This document shows, in pieces, positions 29,807 to 42,662 of a DNA stretch of 64,000 nucleotides. Under the pieces are notes generated by a model, which worked only from the letters and a program-made list of their open reading frames with translations, was not told the origin of the DNA and did not search any database. This DNA comes from Streptomyces pristinaespiralis (GTDB lineage: Bacteria; Actinomycetota; Actinomycetes; Streptomycetales; Streptomycetaceae), in contig NZ_CP011340.1 of the NCBI RefSeq assembly GCF_001278075.1, forward strand, positions 7,313,501 through 7,377,500. Direction: 5' to 3'. The position numbers were made by a program, and so were the translations under genes. Each line of letters starts with the position of its first letter. The first letter of the stretch is position 1.

Positions 29807-30586
29807 CTAGGGCGCCGCCGTGCCGCCGGGGACGCGTCCGTCCGGCAGGAAGAGCACCGAATTGATGTACCGGCCGTCCCTCGGGATCAGGGCCCTGCGC
29901 AGCAGGCCCCGGTGCACCAGGTGCTCCGTCCTGGACTGGTGGCCGGCCAGGTCGAAGTCGGCCAGCGGCATCCACGAGCGGGCGGCCAGGACCCAGCCCC
30001 GGTAGCCCTGGCCGGTCAGCAGGGCGACCACCGGGGCGATGGGGCGGATACGGGTCTCGAGCTCGACGAGGAGCGCCGGGCGGTCCCTCCGGAGCAGGCC
30101 GGAAGCCCCGAGCAGCGCCGCCAGTTCCTCGCCGTCCACGTCCACCTTCACGAAGCGCACGCCGTGCAGCCCGAGGCTGTCGACCGTGACCGTCCGCACG
30201 TCCACGCTGTGTGAGTGGATCTCCCGGCGGGCGAGCGAGGAGACCCCCCGGTCCCCGCGGTCGCCCGCCGGCAGCCACAGCCGGGCGGTGCCCTCACGGT
30301 CCCCGGCGGCCGCCTGTACGACGCGGGCGTTGCCGGGCAGCGTCGACCGGAGGTGCCGGGCCAGGTGGGGCACGGGTTCCAGGGTCACGACCCGCTCGCA
30401 GCGGGCGGCGAGCCGGCGGGACCAGGGGCCGTACCAGCCGCCGATGTCGATCGCCGTGCCTCCTCGCGGGCAGAAGTCGGCCAGCCGACTCAGTTCCGGT
30501 TCGAAGCGCGGATACAGGGCGCAGGCCGCGGAGCCGACCCAGCGGGTGGGCAGGCGGGAGGCGACCGCTGCCGCAAGCGTGGTCAC
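29807..30586 (-). CDS. FkbM-type SAM-dependent methyltransferase
   Basis: 259 residues. SAM-binding motif I is GGTAIDIGGWYGPWS, followed by VVTLEPVPHLARHL, VQAAAGDREGTARLW, VRTVTVDSLGLHGVRFVKVDVDGEE and ALLVELETRI. These are the landmarks of the FkbM family, which O-methylates sugars and polyketides. It is the last gene of the proposed surface-glycan operon and overlaps the Trm112-like gene by 4 nt. I infer sugar methylation. Confidence 0.85.
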   Translation of the reverse strand: MTTLAAAVASRLPTRWVGSAACALYPRFEPELSRLADFCPRGGTAIDIGGWYGPWSRRLAARCERVVTLEPVPHLARHLRSTLPGNARVVQAAAGDREGTARLWLPAGDRGDRGVSSLARREIHSHSVDVRTVTVDSLGLHGVRFVKVDVDGEELAALLGASGLLRRDRPALLVELETRIRPIAPVVALLTGQGYRGWVLAARSWMPLADFDLAGHQSRTEHLVHRGLLRRALIPRDGRYINSVLFLPDGRVPGGTAAP

Positions 30587-30792
30587 TCGGCGGCCGCCCG
30601 CAGGTACGTGGCGTGGTCGTCCTCCGTGACCCTGCTCCCCGAGGACGGAAGCAGCTGCGGGATGCCGTCCACGATGGGGTAACTGAGCTGGAGCCTCGGG
30701 TTGTAGAGGATGTTCTGTTCGCTGAGCAGCGTCAGCGGGCCCTTGTCGAGCGGGCAGGCGAGGATGCGCAGCAGCGGGTCGTCGGCGTCCAT
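30583..30792 (-). CDS. Trm112-like small protein
   Basis: 69 residues: DPLLRILACPLDKGPL ... YNPRLQLSYPIVDGIPQLLPS. This is the Trm112/UPF0434 pattern, a small zinc-ribbon-like fold. In other systems Trm112 stabilises and activates methyltransferases. Only one of the Cys ligands is present. Its 4-nt overlap with the FkbM methyltransferase gene, in a cluster with three methyltransferases, makes a partner role attractive (inference). AAGGAAGG precedes the ATG. Confidence 0.85.
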   Translation of the reverse strand: MDADDPLLRILACPLDKGPLTLLSEQNILYNPRLQLSYPIVDGIPQLLPSSGSRVTEDDHATYLRAAAE

Positions 30793-30822
30793 GGCACCTT
30801 CCTTGGGTTCGGGTGATCGGAT

Positions 30823-30848
30823 CCGGTCGGTCCGGTCGGTCCGGTCGA
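30823..30848. repeat. 9-bp simple repeat in an intra-operon gap
   Basis: CCGGTCGGT is repeated about three times in the 68-nt gap between the transporter and Trm112-like genes. It resembles the repeats of the 22829-22893 gap. Confidence 0.5.
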
Positions 30849-30860
30849 GTGCGGCAGCCC

Positions 30861-31748
30861 TTACGTGCGCGGGGCCGGATCGTGGCGCGGGAGCGCGAGC
30901 AGCACGGACAGCGCCAGCGCCGTACCGGCCACGCGCAGAGTCAGCAGGAGCGGATCCTCCGGCAGCCGCTCCCCGAACGTGATCGTCCCGAGCACCGCCG
31001 TGAACAGGCACGTCACCGTCGTGCAGACGGGCACGATGAGGGAGGCGCGGCAACGCTGCAGCGCCGTCTGCGACATGACGAGACCGGCCGCCGCGGTGAA
31101 CATCAGCAGGTACGGGTAGGGCGAGGTGAACAGCGAGTGGGCCGCGTCGGTGACGTCGGCCGTGGTCAGGCGACTCGACGCGCCCTTGATCGCCAGCGAG
31201 CTGACCCCGTACAGCAGGCCCACGGCCACGCCGTAGCCGATGCCGTTGGTCGGCAGCCGGTGGCGCTTGCGGGAGCGCTGCTCGACCCGGCCGTAGAGCC
31301 ACACGCCCGCGGCGAGTGTCGGCACGCTCACCAGCAGCACCAGCGTCCACGGAGCTCCGCCGCTCACCGTGTCCTCGTCCTCGCGGACGGAGGCGACGAC
31401 CATCAGGAGCGCCACGAGCACCGCGCCGAGGGCGTAGCGCTCGCGGCCCGACGGCTGCTCGCCGAGCACCGCCGACGACAGCAGCAGGAGCAGCACGAGG
31501 CCCGACACGAAGATGCCCTGCGCGGCCGCGATCGGCAGCGCCCGGTAGACGATCAGCTGGGCCGCGAACCCGGCGGCCAGCGCCAGCGATCCGGCGATCC
31601 ACGCCGGACTGGTCAGCAGCACCAGGACGACGTGCACGGGCCTGCCGGCGGAGAGCGCCGGGAGCCGGCCGAGGGCTCTCTTCTCCAGTACGAAACCCAC
31701 GCTGTACAGCAGGTTGGCCACCAGCGCCGCGCCCACGCCCCACCACAC
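30861..31748 (-). CDS. EamA/DMT-family transporter
   Basis: 295 residues, nearly all hydrophobic, with about nine or ten membrane helices in two homologous halves. It begins VWWGVGAALVANLLYSVGFVLEKRAL, as drug/metabolite transporters of the EamA type do. A charged loop lies near the centre (RVEQRSRKRHR). In this operon it could move a lipid-linked sugar or a precursor across the membrane; that is inference. GTG at 31748 lies 5 nt after the preceding methyltransferase stop codon. Confidence 0.82.
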   Translation of the reverse strand: MWWGVGAALVANLLYSVGFVLEKRALGRLPALSAGRPVHVVLVLLTSPAWIAGSLALAAGFAAQLIVYRALPIAAAQGIFVSGLVLLLLLSSAVLGEQPSGRERYALGAVLVALLMVVASVREDEDTVSGGAPWTLVLLVSVPTLAAGVWLYGRVEQRSRKRHRLPTNGIGYGVAVGLLYGVSSLAIKGASSRLTTADVTDAAHSLFTSPYPYLLMFTAAAGLVMSQTALQRCRASLIVPVCTTVTCLFTAVLGTITFGERLPEDPLLLTLRVAGTALALSVLLALPRHDPAPRT

Positions 31749-31753
31749 GGCCG

Positions 31754-32473
31754 CTACCCCCGCCGGGCGTGCGCGAGGAGGACGGACGCCGCACCGGGCA
31801 CCGCGCACGCCGCCCGGTCCAGCAGCCGCAGCCCGCGCGGCACCCCGTGGAACGGCGCGCCCGTGATCCGCACGTCGTGGAATCCGGCGGCCGTGAGGTA
31901 CGAGCGCAGGGCACGGGCCGTGTACAGCCGCAGGTGGCCCACCACCTGCGAGCCGGGCCGGCCGTGGATCCCGCGCAGGCTCACCTCGGAGAACACGGGC
32001 TGCACCCCGGCCAGCAGCAGGGCGCGGTTGTACCAGGCCGCGAGGTTCGGCGTGGAGAGCATCAGATGGCCGCCCGGCCGCAGGATCCGACGCAGTTCGT
32101 CCAGTGCGTGGTCCGGGTCGACCAGATGCTCGATGACCTCGCTGAACAGCACCGCGTCCGCGCACCCGTCGGCGAGCGGCAGCCCGCAGTCGAGTTCGCC
32201 GCGCACCACGTTCCCGAGGTGCGGGCGGGCGCGGCGCAGCGCGTCGTGCGACCAGTCGACGCCGACGAGCCGGTGGCCGCGGAGGAACGGCGCCGCAGCC
32301 CGCGCCGCGCTGCCGTCGCCGCATCCCACGTCGACGACGAGCTGCCCCGGCGACGTGCCGAGGGCCTCGGCCAGCAGCCGTGCCTGGCGTCTGCTGCGGG
32401 CGTCGCCCGAGGCGACCGGGACGGCCGGATCCTCGTAGAAGTCCCGCAGGGCCGGTGAGCCGGTGCCGGTCAC
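31754..32473 (-). CDS. class I SAM-dependent methyltransferase
   Basis: 239 residues. Motif I is QLVVDVGCGDGSAARAA. It is followed by LVGVDWSHDALRRARPH, the post-motif ADAVLFSEVIEHLVDPDHALDELRRILRPGGHLMLSTPN, and a hydrophobic C-terminus. These are features of UbiE/COQ5-like and glycan methyltransferases. The GTG start at 32473 overlaps the stop of the acyltransferase gene (GTGA), so translation is coupled. Confidence 0.88.
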   Translation of the reverse strand: MTGTGSPALRDFYEDPAVPVASGDARSRRQARLLAEALGTSPGQLVVDVGCGDGSAARAAAPFLRGHRLVGVDWSHDALRRARPHLGNVVRGELDCGLPLADGCADAVLFSEVIEHLVDPDHALDELRRILRPGGHLMLSTPNLAAWYNRALLLAGVQPVFSEVSLRGIHGRPGSQVVGHLRLYTARALRSYLTAAGFHDVRITGAPFHGVPRGLRLLDRAACAVPGAASVLLAHARRG

Positions 32474-33783
32474 AGGGCCTCCATCGCCGTCAGATGGTGG
32501 ACGAACAGTTCGCGCAGCCGTACGCCGTCGTCGTCGCAGAGCAGGGAACGCGACCACCGCAGCACCAGATGGAGCCGGCCATCCGTGGAGGCGGTGGTGA
32601 CGGTGAGCCCGCGCGGCATCCTGGCCGGCGCGGAGAACCACACGGCGAAGGCCCGCCCGGCGTCGCCGAAGTCCAGCGGGTACGGGATGCGGCCGATGTT
32701 GCTCAGCAGCGTCGTCGAGGTCCACGGCGCGGCCAGCAGCCGCAGGCCGCGGGTGAGCCCCGCCCGCGCCGCGACCGGCAGGACGGGGAGTGTCAACAGG
32801 CCTGCTCCGTGGCCCAGTTGAGGCCGTGGCTCGGCCTTGAGGGCGCGGGTCCGTTCCGCGGTGCGGCGCAGCAGCAGCGCGAGGTCGAAGCCGTCGGTCC
32901 CTGTGGCCGTCTCTGTGGCCGTGAAGCCGACCTCGACCAGACGGGTGCCGTTGCCGATGGGCATCTCGGGTCCCCGGCTGCGGTCGTCAACGGGCATGGT
33001 GATGCGCAGCGGCCGGCGCGGCGCGCCGTGCGCCCGGTTCCAGCCGGCGACGGTCAGGGCGGTGGCCACCATCAGCTGGTCGTTGACGGTGTAGGAAGCT
33101 CCCGCTTCCCGCCGGGGCACGGGCAGTTCGGTGACGAGCATCGCGTTGCCCGGCACCGGCCCCGGGGTGCCTGCCGCGACCCGCGCGGGTCTGCCGGGCA
33201 GGGTCGGGCCGCCCGCCCGGTGCGGCCGTCCGGCGGGTGCCGGCCGGGCCGGCGGGGGCAGGGCGGGGGCCGGCGCACCGCTGTAGATCTCCGCCGCCGT
33301 GGCCGCCAGCCGCAGGCACGCGGGGCCGTCGAGAGCCGTGTGGTTGAGCGTGAACACCAGCACGCAGCCGTCTCTGCCGGGCTCCTCGACGACCTCGAGC
33401 CGCAGCGGCGGCGAGGACGTCAGGGGCGGCGCCTCGGCGAGGGCGCGGTCCCGTGCCCGGGCGAGGGCGCCCGCCGCGCGCGGCGGGAACGTCACCACCT
33501 CCGTGTCGGGCCGGCGCGTCAGCTCCCACTCGTAGCGCCGTGCGAGCGGCCCGCGGGCCCGCTCCCGCATCAGTGCGCGCGGATACCGGCACAGGGCCTC
33601 GCCGAAAGCGGAGCGCAGCCGGTCCGGTTCGATGGCGCCGGGGAGATGGATCTCGATGTGCACCGTGTTGGGTTCCGTGTCCTGCGCGCAGTGCCGTGCG
33701 ACCTCGTCGACGACCGGGAACGGCACCCGCGGCAGGTCCGGGTACGCCGCGTCGGGGGATGTGGGGCGTTCGACCGTCGCCAT
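32470..33783 (-). CDS. condensation-domain-like acyltransferase (HxxxD)
   Basis: 437 residues of the CoA-dependent acyltransferase superfamily (NRPS condensation domain, PapA5 and wax-ester synthase relatives). The catalytic motif is NHTALDG (His148, Asp152). Later parts include VNDQLMVATALTVAGWNR and STTLLSNIGRIPYPLDFG, resembling the second half of that fold. An acyl group on a sugar or lipid is a reasonable product. It overlaps the AftD-like gene upstream by 1 nt (TGATG) and the methyltransferase gene downstream by 4 nt, so it is embedded in the glycan operon. Confidence 0.75.
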   Translation of the reverse strand: MATVERPTSPDAAYPDLPRVPFPVVDEVARHCAQDTEPNTVHIEIHLPGAIEPDRLRSAFGEALCRYPRALMRERARGPLARRYEWELTRRPDTEVVTFPPRAAGALARARDRALAEAPPLTSSPPLRLEVVEEPGRDGCVLVFTLNHTALDGPACLRLAATAAEIYSGAPAPALPPPARPAPAGRPHRAGGPTLPGRPARVAAGTPGPVPGNAMLVTELPVPRREAGASYTVNDQLMVATALTVAGWNRAHGAPRRPLRITMPVDDRSRGPEMPIGNGTRLVEVGFTATETATGTDGFDLALLLRRTAERTRALKAEPRPQLGHGAGLLTLPVLPVAARAGLTRGLRLLAAPWTSTTLLSNIGRIPYPLDFGDAGRAFAVWFSAPARMPRGLTVTTASTDGRLHLVLRWSRSLLCDDDGVRLRELFVHHLTAMEAL

Positions 33784-36700
33784 CAGAGACTCCTTCCGGG
33801 GTGGTGGGGCGGCGGTCCGCCGCTGCCGGACGCCGGGGGCGCCGGTGCACCGGGCGGCCGGGGCGGACGAGGTTCCGGTGTGCCGGAACCGGGTGGGCGG
33901 CCTGCGTCGGGGACCGTCGCCCGCGGGGCGGCCGGTCCGCCGTACCGGTGGGCGCCGGTGGGGCCGCCATGTTCCCGCCCGACGCTCACCAGAGCCGCGA
34001 ACAGGGCTGTCAGGGCGAGGAGTTGAGCCGCCGGTCCGTACGCGCCCCGGTCCGGTGAGAGCCCGTCACCCGCGCCCAGCACGGCCACCGCGCCGGCTCC
34101 GGCCATCGCCGTGAACGCGAGCGGTACGAGCAACACCGGTCGCAGCCGTGCCACGACCGCCAGCACGGGCACCACCACCGCCACCGGGCCGGCGACCACC
34201 ACGGCCACCAGGGTCAGGGCCACCGTGCCGAGCAGCGGCCCGGGCGCGGGAGGCGCCGCCGCGGTGTGCTCCGCGGCCCGGCCGCGTCGCCCGAGGAGCG
34301 CGAGGCACACCAGCACGGCGAGCAGCAGCCCCGCGCCGGCGAGCCCGGCGCGGTACATCCACGACGGTTCGTACTCGAGCTCCACCGTGCCGCCCTGCCC
34401 CGCGGGGATAAGCCAGCCCTGCTGCCAGCCGTCGATCCGCAGCGGGGTCAGCTCCTCACCGTCCAGCGTGGCCTTCCAGCCGGGGTTGTGGTTCTCGTGG
34501 AGCTGGAGGTACGAGGCGTCTCCCGGCCCGACCCGCACGGACCGGTGGTCACCCGTGCCTTCCCGGACCTCCAGGGCCCGTTCCGGCCCGGCGGACGCCG
34601 GCGTACCGGTCGTGAGCGTGACGCCGGTGACGGCGAGGGGGCCCGCGTCCCCGGCCTCGACCGTGTGGGTCCGTTCGTCGAGGTCCACCCGGCTCCCGTC
34701 CGTGCAGAGCGAGACGTCGACGGGCCGGCGCCCGGTCAGGTCCCGTACCCGGCCTTCGGCGCGGGTCTCGAGGAACTGCCCGTCGACGGAGAGGACCGGC
34801 CCCTTGCCGCACGGCAGCGTGAACGTCTTGTCCGGGTCCGGCTGTGGTGCGCGGAACTCCTTCAGGGCCGGGATGTGGATCTCGCTCAGGCCGACCGGAA
34901 GCTGCAACTGGTCGTCGGCGACCGGGTTGTGCAGCGTCAGCGGCGCGGTCCGCGAGACGGTGATGTCCATCCGGTCGGTGGTGATGGGCGGGAACCGGGC
35001 CATGCCGTTCTCGTCCACGGCGGCGACGGCGGTCCCGTCGGGCGAGCTGATCTGCACCTGTTCGGGCCGGGTGGAGAGCCCGCCGGCCGCCGCGAAGACG
35101 ATCTCGCCGACCGAGGTCTTCTTCGGCCAGGACAGATGGAGCACCGGACGCTCACCGGCGATCCAGGCCGTGGTGAGGTCGCCGTCCGTGAGGTTGCGGG
35201 GGCTGAGGTTCGTTCCCAGGGCCGCCGTCGAGTCGGCGCTCGTGACGATCTTGTCGCGCTGACCGGTCAGTTCGAACAGCAGCTTGTCCAGCGCTTCGCC
35301 CGGCACGGGCAGTGCGGTGGCACGGACGGTGTACGCGCCGGAGCGGGCCGCGGTGAACTGCCGGTGCAGCCCCACCTCGGCGGCCACCGCGGACAGTCCG
35401 CCCGGGTCGCTGCCGCGCTGGAGCGAGTAGACGACGGAGCCGCCGGTCTCCTTCGGGGCGTCCTCGGGAAGCCGGAGCATGCGCGTGACCTGGACGCTGG
35501 GCACGGTGATCTCGGCGAACCCGGCCCCCGTCAGCCCGGGGCGCCCCTGCTGGGACTCAAGGACGGTGACCTTCAGCCAGGACGCGGCCCCTTCCGGGGC
35601 GTCGACCTGCTGGACGGAGCCGTCGGGCCGGAGGGCACTCGTACGGCTGCCGAGGTCGGTCTCGACACGGACGGCCGTCGGCGCGGCGCGGACGTTGCCG
35701 CTTGGCAGCGGGGTCAGCCGGAGCGTGGCCGGCACGGTCGTCGGCCCGTTGAAGTCGATCCTGACCCATTCGCCCTCCGGTGAGCCGGGCGAGCCCTCCG
35801 CCCAGCCGGTGGCGGGGTTGCCGTCGAAGGCGTTGACCGGGTCGTACTGCGGCAGGTGGAAGAGCCAGTTCCCCGCGGACGACGCGCTCACGGAGGCGGC
35901 GCCCCGGAGCACGGCGGTGGTCTGGTGCCCAGGGCTCGTCAGGGGCAGGATCTGCCGCGGCTCGGCACCGGGGTCCTGCACCGCCTCGGCGGCGTTGCGT
36001 TCCTCGCGGGTGTAGGTGTGGGACGTGTTCGAGTTGACCAGCCCGAAGCGGGTGTCGGCGCGGCGCATCCCGTCCCCCGCCGCGTACAGCGACGGCCGGT
36101 CCACGCCCGGGAGTTCGTCGCCGGCGAGAACGGCCGGCCGGCCGTCGAGCCGCCCGCCCGCGGACAGCGGCAGCAGGGACTCCGGACCGCCGCTGACGAC
36201 GGCCGCCGCCGACGCCGGCGTCAGCCGGGCCTTGCCGGGGCGAGCGGTGCCGGCCGGGGGTTCGTAGATCTCCACGGCCCGCTGGCGGGGGAACAGCCCC
36301 TCGACCTGGACCGGTGTGTCCTCGGCGATCCGCCCGCCGGTCAGCACGGGGCCGAAGCCGGCGACGCGCCTGTAACCGGACGCCTCCAGGGTCCGTTTCA
36401 CCGTGGTGGTCGGGACGTGGCCCAGCTGGCGGGGGTCGAGGTCGTTGCGCACCACGACGTGGTGCAGCCCGGCCCGCCGCAGAAAGGCGCTCAGGCCCGG
36501 TACCTCGCCTCCGGTGGTGAGCGCCTGCTCGACGGCGTCCATCGCACGGCGGTTGCCCGGTGTGCCGAAGGGCACGTAGTCCCGCTGCGCCCACGGTGAG
36601 CGCGCGAGGACGTCCAGCGGCTGGTCGATGGGAGAGCCCCAGGTGTAGATGCCGTGCGCGGTCGCCGGCACGACGAGGGCCCGGTCCTGGGCCGCGTTGT

Positions 36701-38054
36701 CCGCCAGCCAGTCGGCGGTCGTCTCCCAGTACGCGGGCAGCCGCTGGAACGAACCGGGCTGGAGGATCGAGCCGTTGACATACGGCCAGCACAGGCCCGG
36801 CAGTACGAGAAGGGCCGCCGCCGGGACGAGGCGCCGCCCGCGCAGCCTCGGCACGAGGGAGACGACGGCGGTCAGGTGCGTCAGGCCCAGGGCCAGCGCC
36901 AGCGCGGCTCCCGTCTGGAACTTGTAGACGTTGCGGAACGGCACCAGCGGGCCGTCGAGCCAGTCCCGCACGGTCCCGTGGAAGGGGCCGCCCAGCGCCC
37001 CGCCGTACCCGGCCAGCGTGACGAGGCAGACGGTGAGCACGGTCACCACCAGCCAGCGGCGTTCGGGCAGATCCCGCCGGGCGAGACCGGCGAGCCCCAG
37101 TGCGGCGGCGAGCGCGGAGCACATGACGACAAGGGCCGAGGTGACGACGGTCCAGCCGGCCGGGAGCCACGCCTCGCCGAAGTTGAGATAGCCCACCCAG
37201 TTCCCCGCGCCGCGCAGCACCTCGGTCGCCGACATCGTGGCGGTGGTGGTCTGCGAGGACTCCACGTACGGCATGAAGTTCTCGCCGTACACGCCGAGGA
37301 GCAGCAGCGGAACGATCCACCAGGCGGTGGCGAGGACCACCGAGGGGGTCCACCAGGCGATGAGCGCCCGCTTGCGCGGACCGCCGGGCCGGCACAGCAG
37401 GTAGAACCCGACGGGCAGCAGAGAGGCAAGTGTCGACGCGGCGTTCACGCCGCCCATCAGGGGGATCAGCAGCGCGGAACGGGCTGCGGCGATCCGGGGC
37501 GCGGTGTGCGGGTTCGTCAGCGGCAGCAGCACCCACGGCAGCATCGCGCCGGGCAGCGCGGCCGCGGAGGTCGAGCCGACGACGATCGTGTACGTGGGCC
37601 ACAGGGCGTAGACGGCCGCGCCGAGGAGCCTGCTGCCCGGCGAGCCGGCACCCAGCCGCTCCGCCAGCCGCAGCGCCCCCCAGAAGGCCGTGGTGACCAC
37701 GATCGAGAGCCACAGCCGCTCCGCGAGCCAGACGGGCAACTGGACCAGATCCGCCAGCGCGTGGAACGGCAGCATGGGGACGGCGTAGCCGATGTACTGG
37801 TCGGCGATGCCGCCGAAGCCGGACCGGTCGTGCCACAGACCGCTCAGGTCGCTGAGGAACTGCCACGGGTCGGCGACCACGCCGAGCTTCGTCTCGAACG
37901 TCATCCGGCCCGGCGACACCGCCAGGAAGGCCACGAACACCGCCGCCCAGAAGCCCACCAGCCAACGGCGCGACCGGGGTTCCGGCGACCGGCCGGAGGG
38001 CGGACCGCCGGCCGCGGGACGGGCGGGCGGTCGTGTGTGGACAGCGCTGGTCAT
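33783..38054 (-). CDS. AftD-like membrane arabinofuranosyltransferase (DUF3367) with discoidin-type domains
   Basis: A 1423-residue GT-C glycosyltransferase. The N-terminal part (about 35-430) has some 11 membrane helices starting RWLVGFWAAVFVAF. The family's DUF3367 core follows, with FHALADLVQLPVWLAERLWL and GPFHGTVRDWLDGPLVPFRNVYKF. Two F5/8-type modules are visible, one around EWVRIDFNGPTTVPATLRL and one around NLTDGDLTTAWIAGERPVL. The C-terminus has three or four more helices. AftD adds arabinofuranose from decaprenyl phosphate in mycobacteria; the sugar used here is unknown. The start is the ATG overlapping the upstream stop codon; a GTG lies 6 nt before. Confidence 0.87.
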   Translation of the reverse strand: MTSAVHTRPPARPAAGGPPSGRSPEPRSRRWLVGFWAAVFVAFLAVSPGRMTFETKLGVVADPWQFLSDLSGLWHDRSGFGGIADQYIGYAVPMLPFHALADLVQLPVWLAERLWLSIVVTTAFWGALRLAERLGAGSPGSRLLGAAVYALWPTYTIVVGSTSAAALPGAMLPWVLLPLTNPHTAPRIAAARSALLIPLMGGVNAASTLASLLPVGFYLLCRPGGPRKRALIAWWTPSVVLATAWWIVPLLLLGVYGENFMPYVESSQTTTATMSATEVLRGAGNWVGYLNFGEAWLPAGWTVVTSALVVMCSALAAALGLAGLARRDLPERRWLVVTVLTVCLVTLAGYGGALGGPFHGTVRDWLDGPLVPFRNVYKFQTGAALALALGLTHLTAVVSLVPRLRGRRLVPAAALLVLPGLCWPYVNGSILQPGSFQRLPAYWETTADWLADNAAQDRALVVPATAHGIYTWGSPIDQPLDVLARSPWAQRDYVPFGTPGNRRAMDAVEQALTTGGEVPGLSAFLRRAGLHHVVVRNDLDPRQLGHVPTTTVKRTLEASGYRRVAGFGPVLTGGRIAEDTPVQVEGLFPRQRAVEIYEPPAGTARPGKARLTPASAAAVVSGGPESLLPLSAGGRLDGRPAVLAGDELPGVDRPSLYAAGDGMRRADTRFGLVNSNTSHTYTREERNAAEAVQDPGAEPRQILPLTSPGHQTTAVLRGAASVSASSAGNWLFHLPQYDPVNAFDGNPATGWAEGSPGSPEGEWVRIDFNGPTTVPATLRLTPLPSGNVRAAPTAVRVETDLGSRTSALRPDGSVQQVDAPEGAASWLKVTVLESQQGRPGLTGAGFAEITVPSVQVTRMLRLPEDAPKETGGSVVYSLQRGSDPGGLSAVAAEVGLHRQFTAARSGAYTVRATALPVPGEALDKLLFELTGQRDKIVTSADSTAALGTNLSPRNLTDGDLTTAWIAGERPVLHLSWPKKTSVGEIVFAAAGGLSTRPEQVQISSPDGTAVAAVDENGMARFPPITTDRMDITVSRTAPLTLHNPVADDQLQLPVGLSEIHIPALKEFRAPQPDPDKTFTLPCGKGPVLSVDGQFLETRAEGRVRDLTGRRPVDVSLCTDGSRVDLDERTHTVEAGDAGPLAVTGVTLTTGTPASAGPERALEVREGTGDHRSVRVGPGDASYLQLHENHNPGWKATLDGEELTPLRIDGWQQGWLIPAGQGGTVELEYEPSWMYRAGLAGAGLLLAVLVCLALLGRRGRAAEHTAAAPPAPGPLLGTVALTLVAVVVAGPVAVVVPVLAVVARLRPVLLVPLAFTAMAGAGAVAVLGAGDGLSPDRGAYGPAAQLLALTALFAALVSVGREHGGPTGAHRYGGPAAPRATVPDAGRPPGSGTPEPRPPRPPGAPAPPASGSGGPPPHHPGRSL

Positions 38055-38770
38055 GAACACCGCCGGAGAATGAGGAGGAGGTTCCAGGTGGCGAACTCAC
38101 GCAGGCCCGGCACACGCGGGACGAGCTCGGGGAGGACCGGCCAGTACCGCGAGCGCGCGCAGACGAGGTCCACATCGCCGCGGCCCCTGACATGGCGCAG
38201 TGTCGGGCCGACACCGATCGCGAAGAGGTTCTCGCCGAGCCGGTGCTTCGCGGCCCGCCCGCTGCGGCGCTCGAACCGGGCACGGGCCCGCTCCGCGCCC
38301 AGATAGTGCCAGGGCGCCCACTCGTGACCGCCCCACGGCGAGAGCCAGTTGGTGAACGACACGTAGATCAGTCCGCCGGGCCGGGTGACGCGGACCATCT
38401 CGCTCAGGAAGGTCCGCGGGTCGGCGACGTGTTCCAGCACGTTCGACGAGAAGCAGACGTCGGCCGCGCCCTCGGCGAGGGGGAGGAGGTATCCGTCGGC
38501 GACGACCGTTCCCTCGCCCGGAGAGGCCGCCAGTTCGGTGACGTCCGGTTCGAAGAGGTAGCCGTGTGCGCCGCGCCGTCTGAACTCACGGGTGAAGTGA
38601 CCGCTGCCGCCGCCGATGTCGACGACGACCCGGCCGTCCAGCTTCATGTACCGCTCCACCTGGTCGGCCGCGTCGCGGGCGAGCAGCCCGTAGGCACGGG
38701 CGGGGTCGGCCTGTTCGCGCATGAACGCCCGGAAGAGCGTGAGGGAACGCCGGAACGAAGGGTCCTTCAC
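38051..38770 (-). CDS. class I SAM-dependent methyltransferase
   Basis: 239 residues. Motif I is RVVVDIGGGSGHFTREF, with an acidic residue after strand 2 in GYLFEPDVTEL. VLEHVADPRTFLSEMVRVTRPGGLIYVSFTNW is the post-motif region and GGHEWAPWHYLG a conserved stretch of glycan-related methyltransferases. It starts at GTG 38770, overlapping the GT4 gene stop by 4 nt, and its own stop overlaps the ATG of the AftD-like gene by 4 nt. Confidence 0.88.
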   Translation of the reverse strand: MKDPSFRRSLTLFRAFMREQADPARAYGLLARDAADQVERYMKLDGRVVVDIGGGSGHFTREFRRRGAHGYLFEPDVTELAASPGEGTVVADGYLLPLAEGAADVCFSSNVLEHVADPRTFLSEMVRVTRPGGLIYVSFTNWLSPWGGHEWAPWHYLGAERARARFERRSGRAAKHRLGENLFAIGVGPTLRHVRGRGDVDLVCARSRYWPVLPELVPRVPGLREFATWNLLLILRRCS

Positions 38771-39972
38771 GTCCGCGCGCCGTTCGTGGTGGCGGGTGTC
38801 CCGCTCCGTGGAACGGGTGAGCGGCCCACCGCTTCCTCGGCCACGGCCTCGAAATGCCGCACCGTGCTGCTCCAGCGGAAGGCGGCGGCGCGCTCGGCGG
38901 CGGCCTTCCCCATGTCCTCGCGCCGGTCGCAGTCGAGGGCCAGCGTGCACCACGCCGCGGCGAACGACGACTCGCCGCGGCACAGCAGGCCCGTGACGCC
39001 GTCCTGGACCGAATCGCGCAGGCCGGGTACGTCGAAGCCCAGGGTGGGGGTGCCCCGTGCCCCGGCCTCCGTCACCACAAGGCCCCAGCCCTCGACGGCC
39101 GCGGGATGCAGCAGCAGCCACGACTCGCAGAGCAGGCGGTGCTTCTCCTCCTCCGGCACATGGCCGGTGAACTCGACGCCCTCACCGGCGAGTCGCTCCA
39201 GACGGGCCCGCTCCGGCCCGTCGCCGACGACGACGAGCCGGCCACCGGTGACCGGCCGGACCCGTTCCCACAGGCGCAGCAGCAGATCGACGCGCTTGTA
39301 GTCGACCAGCCGGCCCAGCGCGAGGAACATCGGCGTCCGCGAGCGCGGGCTGCGCGCGGCCGGTTCGTCGACGCCGTTGTGCACGACCCGGATCCGGCGG
39401 TCGGGCACGCCGATCGCGCGCAGGGCGCCGGCCGTGGACGGAGAGACGGCCACCATGAGGTTGCCGCGGTGCGCGCGGGCGAGCGCCCAGTGTTCGAGCA
39501 GCCGTCCGGCACGGGCCACGGGCGGCGGGAAGCGCATGTCCCAGAGCTCGGTGTGGACGTGGTTGACCAGGCAGACGGTGGGACCGCGGTGCCAGAGGGG
39601 GGCCAGGTACGGCATGCCGTTGCACACCTCGACCAGCAGATCGCACGCGCCGACCTGCCGGGCGAACGCGGACCGTGCGCCGGCGTAGTGCCCGAGCCGG
39701 CCGCCGGCCGACACCACCCGGTACGAGCGGTGCACGGCGGGCCCGCCGCACAGCAGGGTGATCCGGTGGCCCCGCGCGGTGAGGCCCTGCGCGAGCTGGT
39801 CCACGAGCAGTTCGGAGCCGCCGGCGGCGGAGTTGCCGAGGTCACGGTGGGCGAGGAAGACGATGTGCCGGGGGCTTCCGGACAACTCCGGGAGCACGGC
39901 CTGGCGTTGGTGCGGGCGGGCCGGCGGCTGCTGCCGCGCCTCGAGCAGTGGGGGAGGTACGTGCTGGGGCAT
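38767..39972 (-). CDS. GT4-family glycosyltransferase
   Basis: About 401 residues from the ATG at 39972, with GGAG five nt upstream. GT-B fold signs are HRDLGNSAAGGSELLVDQLAQGL (acceptor side) and PRRIRVVHNGVDEP-like donor loop residues. ALGRLVDYKRVDLLL is the donor region, and EGWGLVVTEAGARGTPTLGFDVPGLRD contains the ExxxxxxxE nucleotide-sugar motif of GT4 retaining enzymes. It probably starts the coupled part of the glycan operon. Sugar and acceptor are not predictable. Confidence 0.9.
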   Translation of the reverse strand: MPQHVPPPLLEARQQPPARPHQRQAVLPELSGSPRHIVFLAHRDLGNSAAGGSELLVDQLAQGLTARGHRITLLCGGPAVHRSYRVVSAGGRLGHYAGARSAFARQVGACDLLVEVCNGMPYLAPLWHRGPTVCLVNHVHTELWDMRFPPPVARAGRLLEHWALARAHRGNLMVAVSPSTAGALRAIGVPDRRIRVVHNGVDEPAARSPRSRTPMFLALGRLVDYKRVDLLLRLWERVRPVTGGRLVVVGDGPERARLERLAGEGVEFTGHVPEEEKHRLLCESWLLLHPAAVEGWGLVVTEAGARGTPTLGFDVPGLRDSVQDGVTGLLCRGESSFAAAWCTLALDCDRREDMGKAAAERAAAFRWSSTVRHFEAVAEEAVGRSPVPRSGTPATTNGART

Positions 39973-40136
39973 GGGTGCTCCAACTCGTTTCGGGGTGCGG
40001 AGGGGAATGGGGGGGTGGCGGTGCCGGGTCGGGGACGGTGGGGGGTGACCGGGGGGCCGTGCTGTGGTGGGGACAGCCAGTTTTGGATACGCCGTCGGCG
40101 CGCGGCTACTCACCGGTATGACAACTTGTGCGCCTC

Positions 40137-41120
40137 TCAGGCGGGCGGACTCGTCATCATGTGAGCATTCGCGCGGTCCGGAGCCGGACGGCGACCGCGT
40201 GCCACCAGCGCGGCGCCGATCACCGCGAGCAGGCCGCCCAGTGCCGCCGCGCCCACCGGAGCGGTGGAACCGAGGACGGCGAGCTTGCCGCTGTCGCGTG
40301 AGGCGAGCTCGACCTGCTGCCGCTGTGTCTCCGCCGTGAACGCGAGCCGCTCGCTCTCCAGCAGCACCACCGCGTCCTTGTCCGAGCCCGGCGCGCGCAG
40401 CGTCTTACGGGGACCGATGGCGGCGTGCACGATCCGCCCGGTGCGCCGGTCCACGACCAACTCGACGGCGCTGTTGGAGTACCACTCCTCGGCCAGCACC
40501 TGCGGGGCCTTGTCCCTGCCGACCAGCCGTCCCGGCACCTGGCGCACCCCGGTCCTGGTCGGCGGCACGCTGCCGGTGAACCGCAGGCCCTCGTAACCCT
40601 GGATCTTCGCCGTGCCGCTGTAGCGGAGCCGGATCACGCCCCCGAGCGTGCCGTCCCACCAGCGGTAGGAGCGCTTCTCGACGTCGAAGGGGAACTTCAG
40701 GTAGGCCTCGCCGTCGAAGACGGGGGACTCGTCGCAGCAGTGCACCGGCTCGTTGGTGGCCCGGTCGGTCACCCAGCGCTCCAGCGTCCACTGCAAGGAG
40801 TCCCGGGTGTCGGCGGCCGGCAGGGTGGCGTCGCTGTCGACGGAGGTGGACACGTCCCACACGGCGTTGCCGCTCTTCTCGCTGTCGGCCACGTCGCCCC
40901 GTACCTGACGGGTCACCGTGATCCGCTGCCCGTGCACGGTTCTCACCTTCGAGGTGTCGAAGTAGCTGCCGGTGCCGGTGAACACGGTGGTGGTGTCGAC
41001 GTCGACGGGTGTGCGCTTGGCCTGGGGTGCCACGTACCAGGCGAGAAGGGGAGCCAGCACGAGCAGGAAGACTCCTGCCCCGAAGAGCAGAAGCGAGGTC
41101 GGTGAAGCAGTACGGCGCAT
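40137..41120 (-). CDS. DUF3068 (porin PorA-like family) membrane protein
   Basis: 327 residues. An N-terminal membrane anchor (LLLFGAGVFLLVLAPLLAWYV) is followed by a long extracytoplasmic beta-rich domain with a CC pair (VHCCDESPVFDGEAYLKFPFDVEK). A C-terminal membrane helix (GAAALGGLLAVIGAALVARG) closes it. The domain matches DUF3068, common near surface-glycan genes in actinobacteria and annotated as PorA-like, though pore activity is not shown for this form. It is separated from the GT4 gene by 164 bp and has a clear promoter at 41195-41224. Confidence 0.85.
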   Translation of the reverse strand: MRRTASPTSLLLFGAGVFLLVLAPLLAWYVAPQAKRTPVDVDTTTVFTGTGSYFDTSKVRTVHGQRITVTRQVRGDVADSEKSGNAVWDVSTSVDSDATLPAADTRDSLQWTLERWVTDRATNEPVHCCDESPVFDGEAYLKFPFDVEKRSYRWWDGTLGGVIRLRYSGTAKIQGYEGLRFTGSVPPTRTGVRQVPGRLVGRDKAPQVLAEEWYSNSAVELVVDRRTGRIVHAAIGPRKTLRAPGSDKDAVVLLESERLAFTAETQRQQVELASRDSGKLAVLGSTAPVGAAALGGLLAVIGAALVARGRRPAPDRANAHMMTSPPA

Positions 41121-41194: not shown

Positions 41195-41224
41195 ACAGTA
41201 GGCAGCCACTTGACGGAATGTCAA
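41195..41224 (-). promoter_or_regulatory. consensus-like promoter of the DUF3068/glycan cluster
   Basis: On the minus strand TTGACA (41219-41224) and TACTGT (41195-41200) are 18 bp apart, a good match to a housekeeping sigma factor promoter. The -35 is part of a palindrome TTGAC-GGAAT-GTCAA (41210-41224), with a further GTCAA at 41231-41235. A repressor may bind there, and could also affect the divergent gene at 41305. Confidence 0.6.
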
Positions 41225-41304: not shown

Positions 41305-41457
41305 ATGCGCAGACTTCTTGCCGCCGCCGTCACCGCAGCGTTGGCCGCGGCGCTCGCCGTGGGCACGGCCCTCGGCATCGTGGCCGCGCTGCAGAGCACC
41401 CCGGAGCAGCCGAACACCCCGCTGATCAGTTACGACACCGGGCGGCCCGCCCGATGA
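41305..41457 (+). CDS. small secreted or membrane-anchored protein (DUF2613-like)
   Basis: 50 residues: a basic start (MRRLLAAAVTAALAAAL), one hydrophobic segment and a short polar tail (LQSTPEQPNTPLISYDTG). AGGAG lies 10 nt before the ATG. The stop codon overlaps the ATG of the PucR gene (ATGA). From memory, a small secreted protein gene (Rv0236A, DUF2613) sits next to aftD in M. tuberculosis; here too the neighbour across the promoter region is the AftD-bearing cluster. Family membership is tentative. Confidence 0.7.
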   Translation: MRRLLAAAVTAALAAALAVGTALGIVAALQSTPEQPNTPLISYDTGRPAR

Positions 41458-42662
41458 CGCGCCCCGCGTGGAGCGAGGTCCCCCAGGCGCAGCTCGACCG
41501 GTTCGCCGCGATCGCCCTCGCCGGGGCCCAGGAGCTCGCCCAGGAGATCCTCGGCGAGATACGGCGCGAGCACCCCGAACTGAGGCTCACGGGGGACGAG
41601 TCGGGCGAGCCGATGGCGCTCGTCGGCATCCGCCGCGCCATCGAGGGCTTCGTGCACAACCTGGCGTCAGGCACCGGGCGTCCCCGCGTACCGCCGGACG
41701 TCTTCCAGGAGTTCGGCCGCGGCGAGGGCCGCGGCGGCCGCAGCCTCGACTCGCTCCAGGCCACCTACCGGCTCGGCGTCAGACTGGCCTGGCGGCGGTT
41801 CGCCGAGATCGGCCAGCAGGTCGACATCGCCGCTCCCGCCATGTACGAACTCGCCGAATCCGGCTTCGAGTACCTGGACGGCCTGGTGGAACAGTCGGTA
41901 CGGGGCTACGCCGAGGCCGCTGCCCGCCGTGCGGGCGAAAGGCTGCGCCTGCAACGCCAGTTGATCGACCTGCTGCTCGTGGAGCACCGCGGCGACCCGG
42001 CCGGGACGCTCGCGGAAAGGGCCGCCCGCATCGGCTGGGACCTGCCCGCCACCGTCGCCGTCGGCGTTCTGGTACGCCCCGCCAGGGAAGCCGTCGCACC
42101 GGCCGTCGAACAGGGCATCCTCCTCGACATGGAGAGCGAACAGCCGCGCATCGTCGTGCCGGAACCGTGCACCGCCGGCCGTGCGGAGACCCTGCGCCGT
42201 GCCACGGCCGGCTGGTCGGGTGCGATCGGCCCGCCGGTGCCGCTCGCGGCCGCCGCCAGGTCGCTGCGCTGGGCGGAGACGGCGGTCCGCCTCATCGAGA
42301 GCGGACTGCTGCCGGACGGCGAGGTGCTGCACTGCACGGAACGCACGGAGGAACTGGTCTTACTGCCGTCGGGGGAGCTGATCGACGCGGCGGCCCGCCG
42401 CTGCCTGGCGCCCCTCCGCGACGCCGCCCCCACCCAGGCCCGCCGCCTTGCGGAGACCCTGCTCGCCTGGATGGAGACCGCGGGCGGAGCACCCGAGGTG
42501 GCGCACCGTCTGGGCATCCACCCCCAGACGGCCCGCTACCGGCTGCGGCAGATCCGCGAACTGTGGGGCGACCTGATCGACGACCCCGACCGCCGCTTCG
42601 AGATGCTGCTCGTGCTGCGTTCCCAGCGGCTGCGCGGGCAACTGGGGGAGGGCGGTCTCTGA
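41454..42662 (+). CDS. PucR/CdaR family transcriptional regulator
   Basis: 402 residues. The C-terminal helix-turn-helix (about 345-395) includes VAHRLGIHPQTARYRLRQIRELWGDLI, the PucR C-terminal signature. The N-terminal half (ALVGIRRAIEGFVHNLAS, SLDSLQATYRLGVRLAWRRF) is the ligand-independent domain seen in many Streptomyces members, and the middle is a GGDEF-like CdaR fold. It is translationally coupled to the small protein before it. Its target may be the divergent glycan cluster (inference). Confidence 0.9.
   Translation: MTRPAWSEVPQAQLDRFAAIALAGAQELAQEILGEIRREHPELRLTGDESGEPMALVGIRRAIEGFVHNLASGTGRPRVPPDVFQEFGRGEGRGGRSLDSLQATYRLGVRLAWRRFAEIGQQVDIAAPAMYELAESGFEYLDGLVEQSVRGYAEAAARRAGERLRLQRQLIDLLLVEHRGDPAGTLAERAARIGWDLPATVAVGVLVRPAREAVAPAVEQGILLDMESEQPRIVVPEPCTAGRAETLRRATAGWSGAIGPPVPLAAAARSLRWAETAVRLIESGLLPDGEVLHCTERTEELVLLPSGELIDAAARRCLAPLRDAAPTQARRLAETLLAWMETAGGAPEVAHRLGIHPQTARYRLRQIRELWGDLIDDPDRRFEMLLVLRSQRLRGQLGEGGL

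Follow-up and report, generated by a model that had tools for sequence, protein, structure and literature searches.

The present analysis concerns a cluster of nine minus-strand genes in Streptomyces pristinaespiralis, located in a 64,000-nt stretch of DNA (GCF_001278075.1, NZ_CP011340.1, positions 7,313,501-7,377,500; hereafter the window) from a genome, G000, that consists of one contig. The gene at 40137..41120 belongs to the PgfA/LmcA family of periplasmic lipid carriers (PF11271, DUF3068/PorA; NF053601 with 318 bits against a cut-off of 160), and it is followed by a GT4 glycosyltransferase (38767..39972, assigned by Pfam, with an alternative GTG start at 40113), a class I S-adenosylmethionine (SAM) methyltransferase assigned by Pfam and MtrP-like by its match to a hidden Markov model (HMM) of the methyltransferase in mycolata loci (MT1, 38051..38770; E 1e-68), and a large AftD-like GT-C glycosyltransferase with CBM and F5/8C domains (33783..38054; PF11847 with 730 bits, PF24607 with 53 bits). 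Downstream lie an HxxxD acyltransferase of the PapA/WS-DGAT/condensation type (ATF, 32470..33783), whose window copy has no Pfam match and a weak one to TIGR02946, a second class I SAM methyltransferase (MT2, 31754..32473, Pfam), a DMT/EamA-like membrane transporter (30861..31748; NF038012 with 34 bits, cut-off 50, and PF05653 with 25 bits, cut-off 26.2), a small Trm112-like/UPF0434 protein (30583..30792; PF03966 with 42 bits, PDB 2jny at 9e-12) and an FkbM-family methyltransferase (29807..30586; PF05050, TIGR01444). A first-pass annotation of this DNA had proposed these nine genes, and all are present where it placed them and with matching families; its label DUF3068 has to be corrected to PgfA/LmcA, and it had overlooked a divergent 50-amino-acid gene and a promoter-like element that are described further below.

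The genes are closely packed. Overlaps of 4 nt join GT4 to MT1, MT1 to AftD, ATF to MT2 and Trm112 to FkbM, AftD and ATF overlap by 1 nt, and MT2 and EamA are separated by a 5-nt gap, which confirms the earlier count of six tight junctions out of eight (five overlaps of 1-4 nt and one 5-nt gap). The two loose junctions are PgfA/GT4, with 164 nt to the ATG at 39972 or 23 nt to the GTG at 40113, and EamA/Trm112 with 68 nt. Scanning the window for Rfam families, tRNAs and generic terminators gave no matches, and no recognisable glycan or assembly-line genes were found among the 20 neighbouring open reading frames (ORFs) scanned, two of which have no Pfam match.

Within the genus, AftD is carried by 40 of 101 Streptomyces genomes. 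We compared 38 Streptomyces AftD loci from 37 genomes, those fetched being 35 from the genus sample, which has 39 AftD-positive members besides G000 (G246, G276, G294 and G315 were left aside), together with G501 and G510 from the class sample; 31 loci are complete, and the seven cut by contig ends (L061, L064, L065, L069, L070, L075 and L090) were left out of full-locus counts. PgfA, GT4, MT1, AftD, ATF, MT2 and Trm112 are each present in 31/31 complete loci, EamA in 29/31 and FkbM in 22/31, hence the joint conservation of the nine genes expected at first reading holds throughout for seven of them. These counts come from profiles whose training ORFs reached back to the preceding stop and which list some genes more than once; they agree with tblastn. 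Junctions are conserved as well, with denominators that include a few loci without an assignable start: the exact 4-nt overlap is kept at MT1/AftD (27/31), ATF/MT2 (27/31), Trm112/FkbM (21/22) and GT4/MT1 (14/31), AftD and ATF overlap by 4 or 1 nt in 24/31, and the PgfA/GT4 spacing, taken to the ATG-type start, exceeds 20 nt in 30/31, the remaining one being unassigned. With four loci from other classes as root, the AftD tree groups all 39 Streptomyces tips in a single clade (support 0.964), whose sister is family f78. Three f78 genomes (G371, G413 and G422; loci L136-L138) have AftD without a PorA/PgfA match plus a second, divergent AftD-like copy, and in L136 an HxxxD acyltransferase with 27% identity lies downstream.

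The core of the cluster extends far beyond Streptomyces. PorA/PgfA occurs in 42 and AftD in 35 of 246 genomes sampled across the phylum, and in a class sample of 197 genomes AftD was found in 89, PorA/PgfA in 87 and both in 74 (Fisher p 4e-25), with the two genes no more than 25 kb apart in 68 of these 74. Clustering of the ORFs of 80 fetched loci showed that GT4, AftD, PgfA and MT1 each span 12-14 family labels; beyond Streptomyces two more clustered genes occur, one for a TmaT-like acyltransferase 3 (9 labels) and the other for an MmpA-like protein of 600 amino acids (12 labels), and neither of these clusters has a Streptomyces member among the 80 loci. In locus L102 of family f3 the order is AftD, TmaT, PgfA, a further gene, MmpA, GT4 and MT1. 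When the window GT4 was searched against 34 whole genomes at E 1e-20, matches were obtained in 30 (one each in 28, two in 2), the best lying no more than 20 kb from an AftD-family gene in 30/30 and no more than 2 kb away in 25, with the reservation that the AftD lists of G371 and G422 include divergent second copies (277-291 bits), one of these being the nearest gene; the four genomes lacking a match at this threshold are the four AftD-less Streptomyces included.

A scan of named genomes yielded at least 575 confirmed AftD relatives, of which 80 were kept, 22 from genera that we take to be mycolata and 58 others (12 of the latter carry no genus name, and one of these is titled Corynebacteriales); Micromonospora, Actinoplanes, Blastococcus, Nocardioides, Terrabacter, Intrasporangium, Jiangella and Pseudonocardia are included among the kept loci. 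HMMs trained on 14-21 mycolata sequences each, with copies chosen by the labels of earlier profiles that included relatives of the test loci, matched GT4 in 56 of the 58 other loci, PgfA in 54, MmpA in 52, TmaT in 47 and MT1 in 43. On the window the same models gave GT4 at 7e-57, PgfA at 8e-31 and MT1 at 1e-68, and those of MmpA and TmaT had no match among the nine proteins. Conversely, ATF, MT2, EamA and Trm112 were matched in none of the 80 named loci at the thresholds used, and FkbM in three: the Streptomyces FkbM profile matches an ORF (323-327 bits) before MmpA in the Micromonosporaceae loci L209, L217 and L229 (Micromonospora, Verrucosispora), so recruitment of FkbM is not confined to Streptomyces.

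The known counterpart of this core is a locus of the Corynebacteriales, which M. tuberculosis presumably possesses in matching gene and strand order. As far as the accessible parts of the sources go, it has been described as tmaT-lmcA-mmpA-GT-mtrP-aftD (PMC8698533, PMC6034362, PMC7775120), with aftD synteny across all Corynebacteriales (PMC6034362); in C. glutamicum it comprises cg3161 (AftD), cg3162, cg3163 (TmaT), cg3164, cg3165, cg3166 (a putative glycosyltransferase), cg3167 and cg3168 (MtrP) (PMC7775120, in part), where cg3165 is MmpA according to the available portion of PMC11175481. Both this locus and the Streptomyces one link AftD, PgfA/LmcA, GT4 and an MtrP-type methyltransferase, and in the mycolata loci L202 and L207 a DUF2613 ORF lies directly upstream of aftD. 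Unlike the Corynebacteriales locus, the Streptomyces loci lack TmaT and MmpA, have added the HxxxD acyltransferase, MT2, the DMT transporter, the Trm112-like protein and often FkbM, and are arranged as a one-strand operon, and neither Emb nor mycolate reductase was found in the ten Streptomyces tested. The accessible text of PMC8698533 states that NCgl2761 and Rv0226c share no homology with proteins outside corynebacteria and mycobacteria, and the distribution found here extends beyond what that paper and PMC6034362 each describe. A literature search that left aside most subscription journals found no published account of the locus in Streptomyces, and the word Streptomyces is absent from the main text of PMC8972800, PMC9678360, PMC6034362, PMC7775120 and PMC8698533. 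Thus, the earlier statement that no pathway with this set is known fails for the core, which matches the Corynebacteriales tmaT/lmcA-aftD locus, and stands for the nine-gene Streptomyces form within the literature searched. We read the cluster as the Streptomyces form of a widespread actinobacterial module that consists of AftD, PgfA/LmcA, GT4, an MtrP-type methyltransferase and a DUF2613-type microprotein, joined by TmaT and MmpA in most other families; together with the export line proposed below, this reading is given a probability of roughly 58%.

The AftD-like enzyme raises the question of the sugar donor. Residues 27-1343 of its 1423 match the M. abscessus AftD (6w98, E 4e-146), with which it shares the GT-C_AftD and CBM_AftD domains; it differs in having Glu at position 54 and in the host genome, where the DprE1/UbiA route was not found. 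Position 54 is acidic in 79/79 homologues (Asp in 61, Glu in 18), and E265, R374 and K378 are invariant among them. This bears on the idea that the protein is not a transferase and instead serves as a carbohydrate-binding scaffold of an export complex. Its F5/8C and CBM domains would suit such a role, and for Rv0226c/MmpA, a relative of AftD, a part as anchor of a protein complex has been suggested (PMC8698533, in the part available); the acidic position 54, E265 and K378, kept in all 79 sequences, would fit retained catalysis, and we regard a pure scaffold as quite improbable.

The same match to M. abscessus AftD would suit the proposal of the first-pass annotation, in which AftD decorates a mycobacterial-type cell-wall arabinan with decaprenyl-phosphate-arabinofuranose (DPA) as donor. 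In G000, however, Emb (EmbA/B/C) gave no matches, DprE1 had no match at 1e-30, the best family score being 64.9 bits against a cut-off of 500, and DPPR synthase (UbiA) had no match at 1e-15, which leaves room for a non-homologous donor route. Since these three were not found in a one-contig genome, a DPA-fed arabinan is unlikely in this strain and was ruled out as the principal reading of this genome; with the known arabinose-donor route apparently missing, the AftD-like enzyme may do a different job here. A survey of 38 whole genomes, 34 of them AftD-positive, found Emb in four, which are the four genomes of f3, and mycolate reductase in the same four (scan at E 1e-60, scoring only 50 first-look candidates in most genomes), and 30 of the 34 AftD-positive genomes show neither. 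Genera such as Micromonospora are not known to have mycolates, and the mycolate reductase scan agrees for the surveyed genomes outside f3. DprE1 exceeded the cut-off of 500 bits in 19 of the 38 genomes; 16 of these belong to the 34 with AftD, and 12 of the 16 lie outside f3. Among the 18 AftD-positive genomes that stay below this cut-off, one scores 484 and another 224 bits.

On the other side, some Streptomyces genomes do carry DprE1 and UbiA homologues, and these are commoner where AftD is present: DprE1 together with a UbiA over 200 bits is found in 22/40 AftD-positive vs. 14/61 AftD-less genomes, and neither has a match in 10/40 AftD-positive ones. Because of the enrichment of DprE1 with AftD the arabinan is kept as a rival, an improbable one for the cluster at hand, and arabinose use is possible in other species, given that DprE1 is also present in AftD-positive genomes outside f3. 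The locus as such does not need arabinose. As a separate observation, the genes of DprE1 and of a homologue of UbiA (DPPR synthase) are divergently oriented with about 1 kb between them in G285, G254, G336 and G128 (L145-L150, L153-L158, compared by eye), a pair that is seen with or without AftD in the genome and that may be a DPA locus in Streptomyces.

The window PgfA is by sequence and fold an LmcA-type carrier, with the carrier role itself predicted. Its profile (A2) matches LmcA 7n3v at E 1.2e-60, and its AF2 model (pLDDT 93) matches LmcA 7shw (E 2.0e-17, TM 0.82 by target length) with just 20% identity, so that it shares the sequence profile and the beta-barrel fold with LmcA/PgfA (MSMEG_0317, 7n3v/7shw) despite low identity; a single-sequence phmmer search against PDB gave no match, the likeness coming from profile and fold alone. 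LIMP-2/CD36 appeared among the weaker fold matches, and the accessible part of PMC8972800 notes that LmcA resembles lipid-binding CD36. In mycobacteria and corynebacteria the purpose of PgfA/LmcA is unsettled between lipoglycan synthesis and mycolate traffic, to judge from the portions available of PMC8972800, PMC9678360 and PMC8698533. The genome carries a second PgfA paralogue (L099 11206-12195; C1:6449221-6450126) with 290.5 bits to PF11271 (cut-off 29.5) and 26% identity to the window copy, and the other eight proteins have no match within its surrounding 20 kb.

For the acyltransferase, residues H148, D152 and G153 of the HxxxDG motif are invariant in 32 homologues, of which few reach Pfam significance (PapA_C, PF16911, in four, WS_DGAT_C in three and Condensation in two), a point on which the family departs from known HxxxD acyltransferases. 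The motif and the fold class are those of PapA/WS-DGAT/condensation acyltransferases: the model, of modest quality (mean pLDDT 71), matches the condensation/HCT acyltransferase fold at E about 1e-11 with TM 0.30-0.46, and homologues in S. griseus, S. avermitilis and others are annotated as condensation proteins. The single sequence found nothing significant in PDB. As for the methyltransferases, MT1 has its best match and MT2 its fifth in PDB 6f5z_A, whose deposition also contains a chain of the UPF0434/Trm112 type, which weakly suggests a Trm112-dependent methyltransferase in the cluster.

Starting from the directly observed gene content, gene order, conservation and PgfA family, and from Emb, DprE1 and DPPR synthase not being found in G000, we propose that the cluster encodes an export line whose product is an envelope glycolipid or lipoglycan with acyl and methyl groups. 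GT4 would build the glycolipid on the cytoplasmic face. MT1, MT2 and FkbM would methylate it, the Trm112-like protein perhaps serving as their activator, and the HxxxD enzyme would acylate it in place of TmaT. The DMT protein may help to flip the glycolipid or a lipid-linked sugar; on the outer side of the membrane the AftD-like GT-C enzyme would add a sugar taken from a polyprenyl-phosphate donor, in this strain not arabinose made by DprE1/UbiA, and PgfA would shuttle the product. Polyprenyl-phosphate mannose is the obvious candidate donor; the accessible text of PMC5882110 states that lipomannan synthesis is not known from Streptomyces and names other possible users of this donor in S. coelicolor, with AftD not among them in that text. 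The acylated, methylated envelope glycoconjugate of the first-pass annotation fits the enzyme set.

Acylation and methylation with a GT4 enzyme could also point to a methylated polysaccharide of the cytoplasm resembling the MMPs of mycobacteria, a related MMP having been identified in S. griseus (PMC9883506, in the part available). The published cluster, in the same portion of text, consists of MeT1, MmpH, pMeT3 and ManT without AftD, PgfA or a transporter, whereas the Streptomyces cluster centres on a periplasmic-carrier family and a GT-C enzyme; this very unlikely alternative was ruled out on gene content.

Several observations weigh against the module and its export line. Of the 89 AftD-bearing genomes of the class sample 15 have no PorA match, 10 of these in f78, 13 of the 87 with PorA have no AftD, and six of the 74 with both carry them unlinked. 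Only 40/101 Streptomyces have AftD at all, DprE1 is commoner with AftD (30/40) than without it (24/61) in the 101 Streptomyces (p 5e-4), and it is over the cut-off in 12/30 AftD-positive genomes outside f3. Moreover, the DMT and HxxxD family matches are below curated cut-offs, and so is the DUF2613 match of the window microprotein.

This microprotein is encoded upstream of the cluster, in a region that holds putative control elements. A promoter/operator-like element, TTGACA-18-TACTGT, lies on the minus strand at 41195..41224, and a palindrome, TTGAC-N5-GTCAA, at 41210-41224 overlaps its first box. The palindrome occurs once in the window against 0.03 expected, and in 34/38 Streptomyces AftD loci vs. 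1 of 200 other loci; the four without it are L064, L069 and L075, which are cut off upstream, and L093. Upstream of PgfA, 30/31 complete Streptomyces loci have a TTGACA-like box with TA-N3-T 16-19 nt behind it, against a mean of 0.08 of 31 in mononucleotide shuffles, and a generic sigma-70 scan of the window reported no promoter.

Divergently from the cluster, at 41305..41457 on the plus strand, lies the gene of a DUF2613-like hydrophobic microprotein of 50 amino acids, which carries TPEQPNTPLISYDT near its end. Its score to Pfam DUF2613 (PF11021) is 16.9 bits against a cut-off of 22.1, while its length and locus-adjacent place agree. An HMM of six copies (the window, L080, L081, L083, L085 and L097) matches ORFs in 30/38 Streptomyces loci, L083 and L085 included. 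Ten relatives were compared with DUF2613: the two mycolata ORFs that directly precede aftD exceed the cut-off with 79 and 84 bits, four others reach 11-20 bits, and the remaining four, two of them Streptomyces copies, have no match. The gene overlaps by 4 nt with that of a PucR-type helix-turn-helix regulator (41454..42662, plus strand; PF13556), relatives of which are found at 30/38 Streptomyces AftD loci, and this divergent protein, possibly a regulator of the cluster, is one candidate to act at the palindrome.

A conserved promoter palindrome and divergent regulator gene of its own, a PapA/condensation-type acyltransferase and the patchy occurrence in the genus (40/101) would each be in keeping with a specialised-metabolite cluster, in which the old core was recruited for a secreted acylated, methylated glycolipid. 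Against such a cluster stand the seven genes present in all 31 complete loci and the neighbourhood, where the 20 ORFs scanned include no assembly-line genes, and we consider it unlikely.

Work on AftD, PgfA and MmpA in mycobacteria and corynebacteria treats them as envelope proteins that are essential or important. In Streptomyces the cluster is probably dispensable, since just 40 of the 101 genomes carry AftD, and it is more interesting for the identity of its core than for the arabinan idea. Tentatively, one may go further and suppose that arabinose transfer by AftD and mycolate acetylation and transport by TmaT, MmpA and MtrP are not ancestral; the whole locus of AftD, PgfA, GT4, MtrP, TmaT, MmpA and a microprotein would make and export a glycolipid in mycolate-free and often DPA-free Actinomycetes, where AftD would use another polyprenyl-phosphate sugar, and Streptomyces would have rebuilt its acylation and export end. 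If the locus indeed works without mycolates or the known arabinose donor, the basic chemistry of these proteins could be studied in harmless Streptomyces, and it would have to be re-examined whether AftD relatives in many Actinomycetes deserve the name "arabinofuranosyltransferase".

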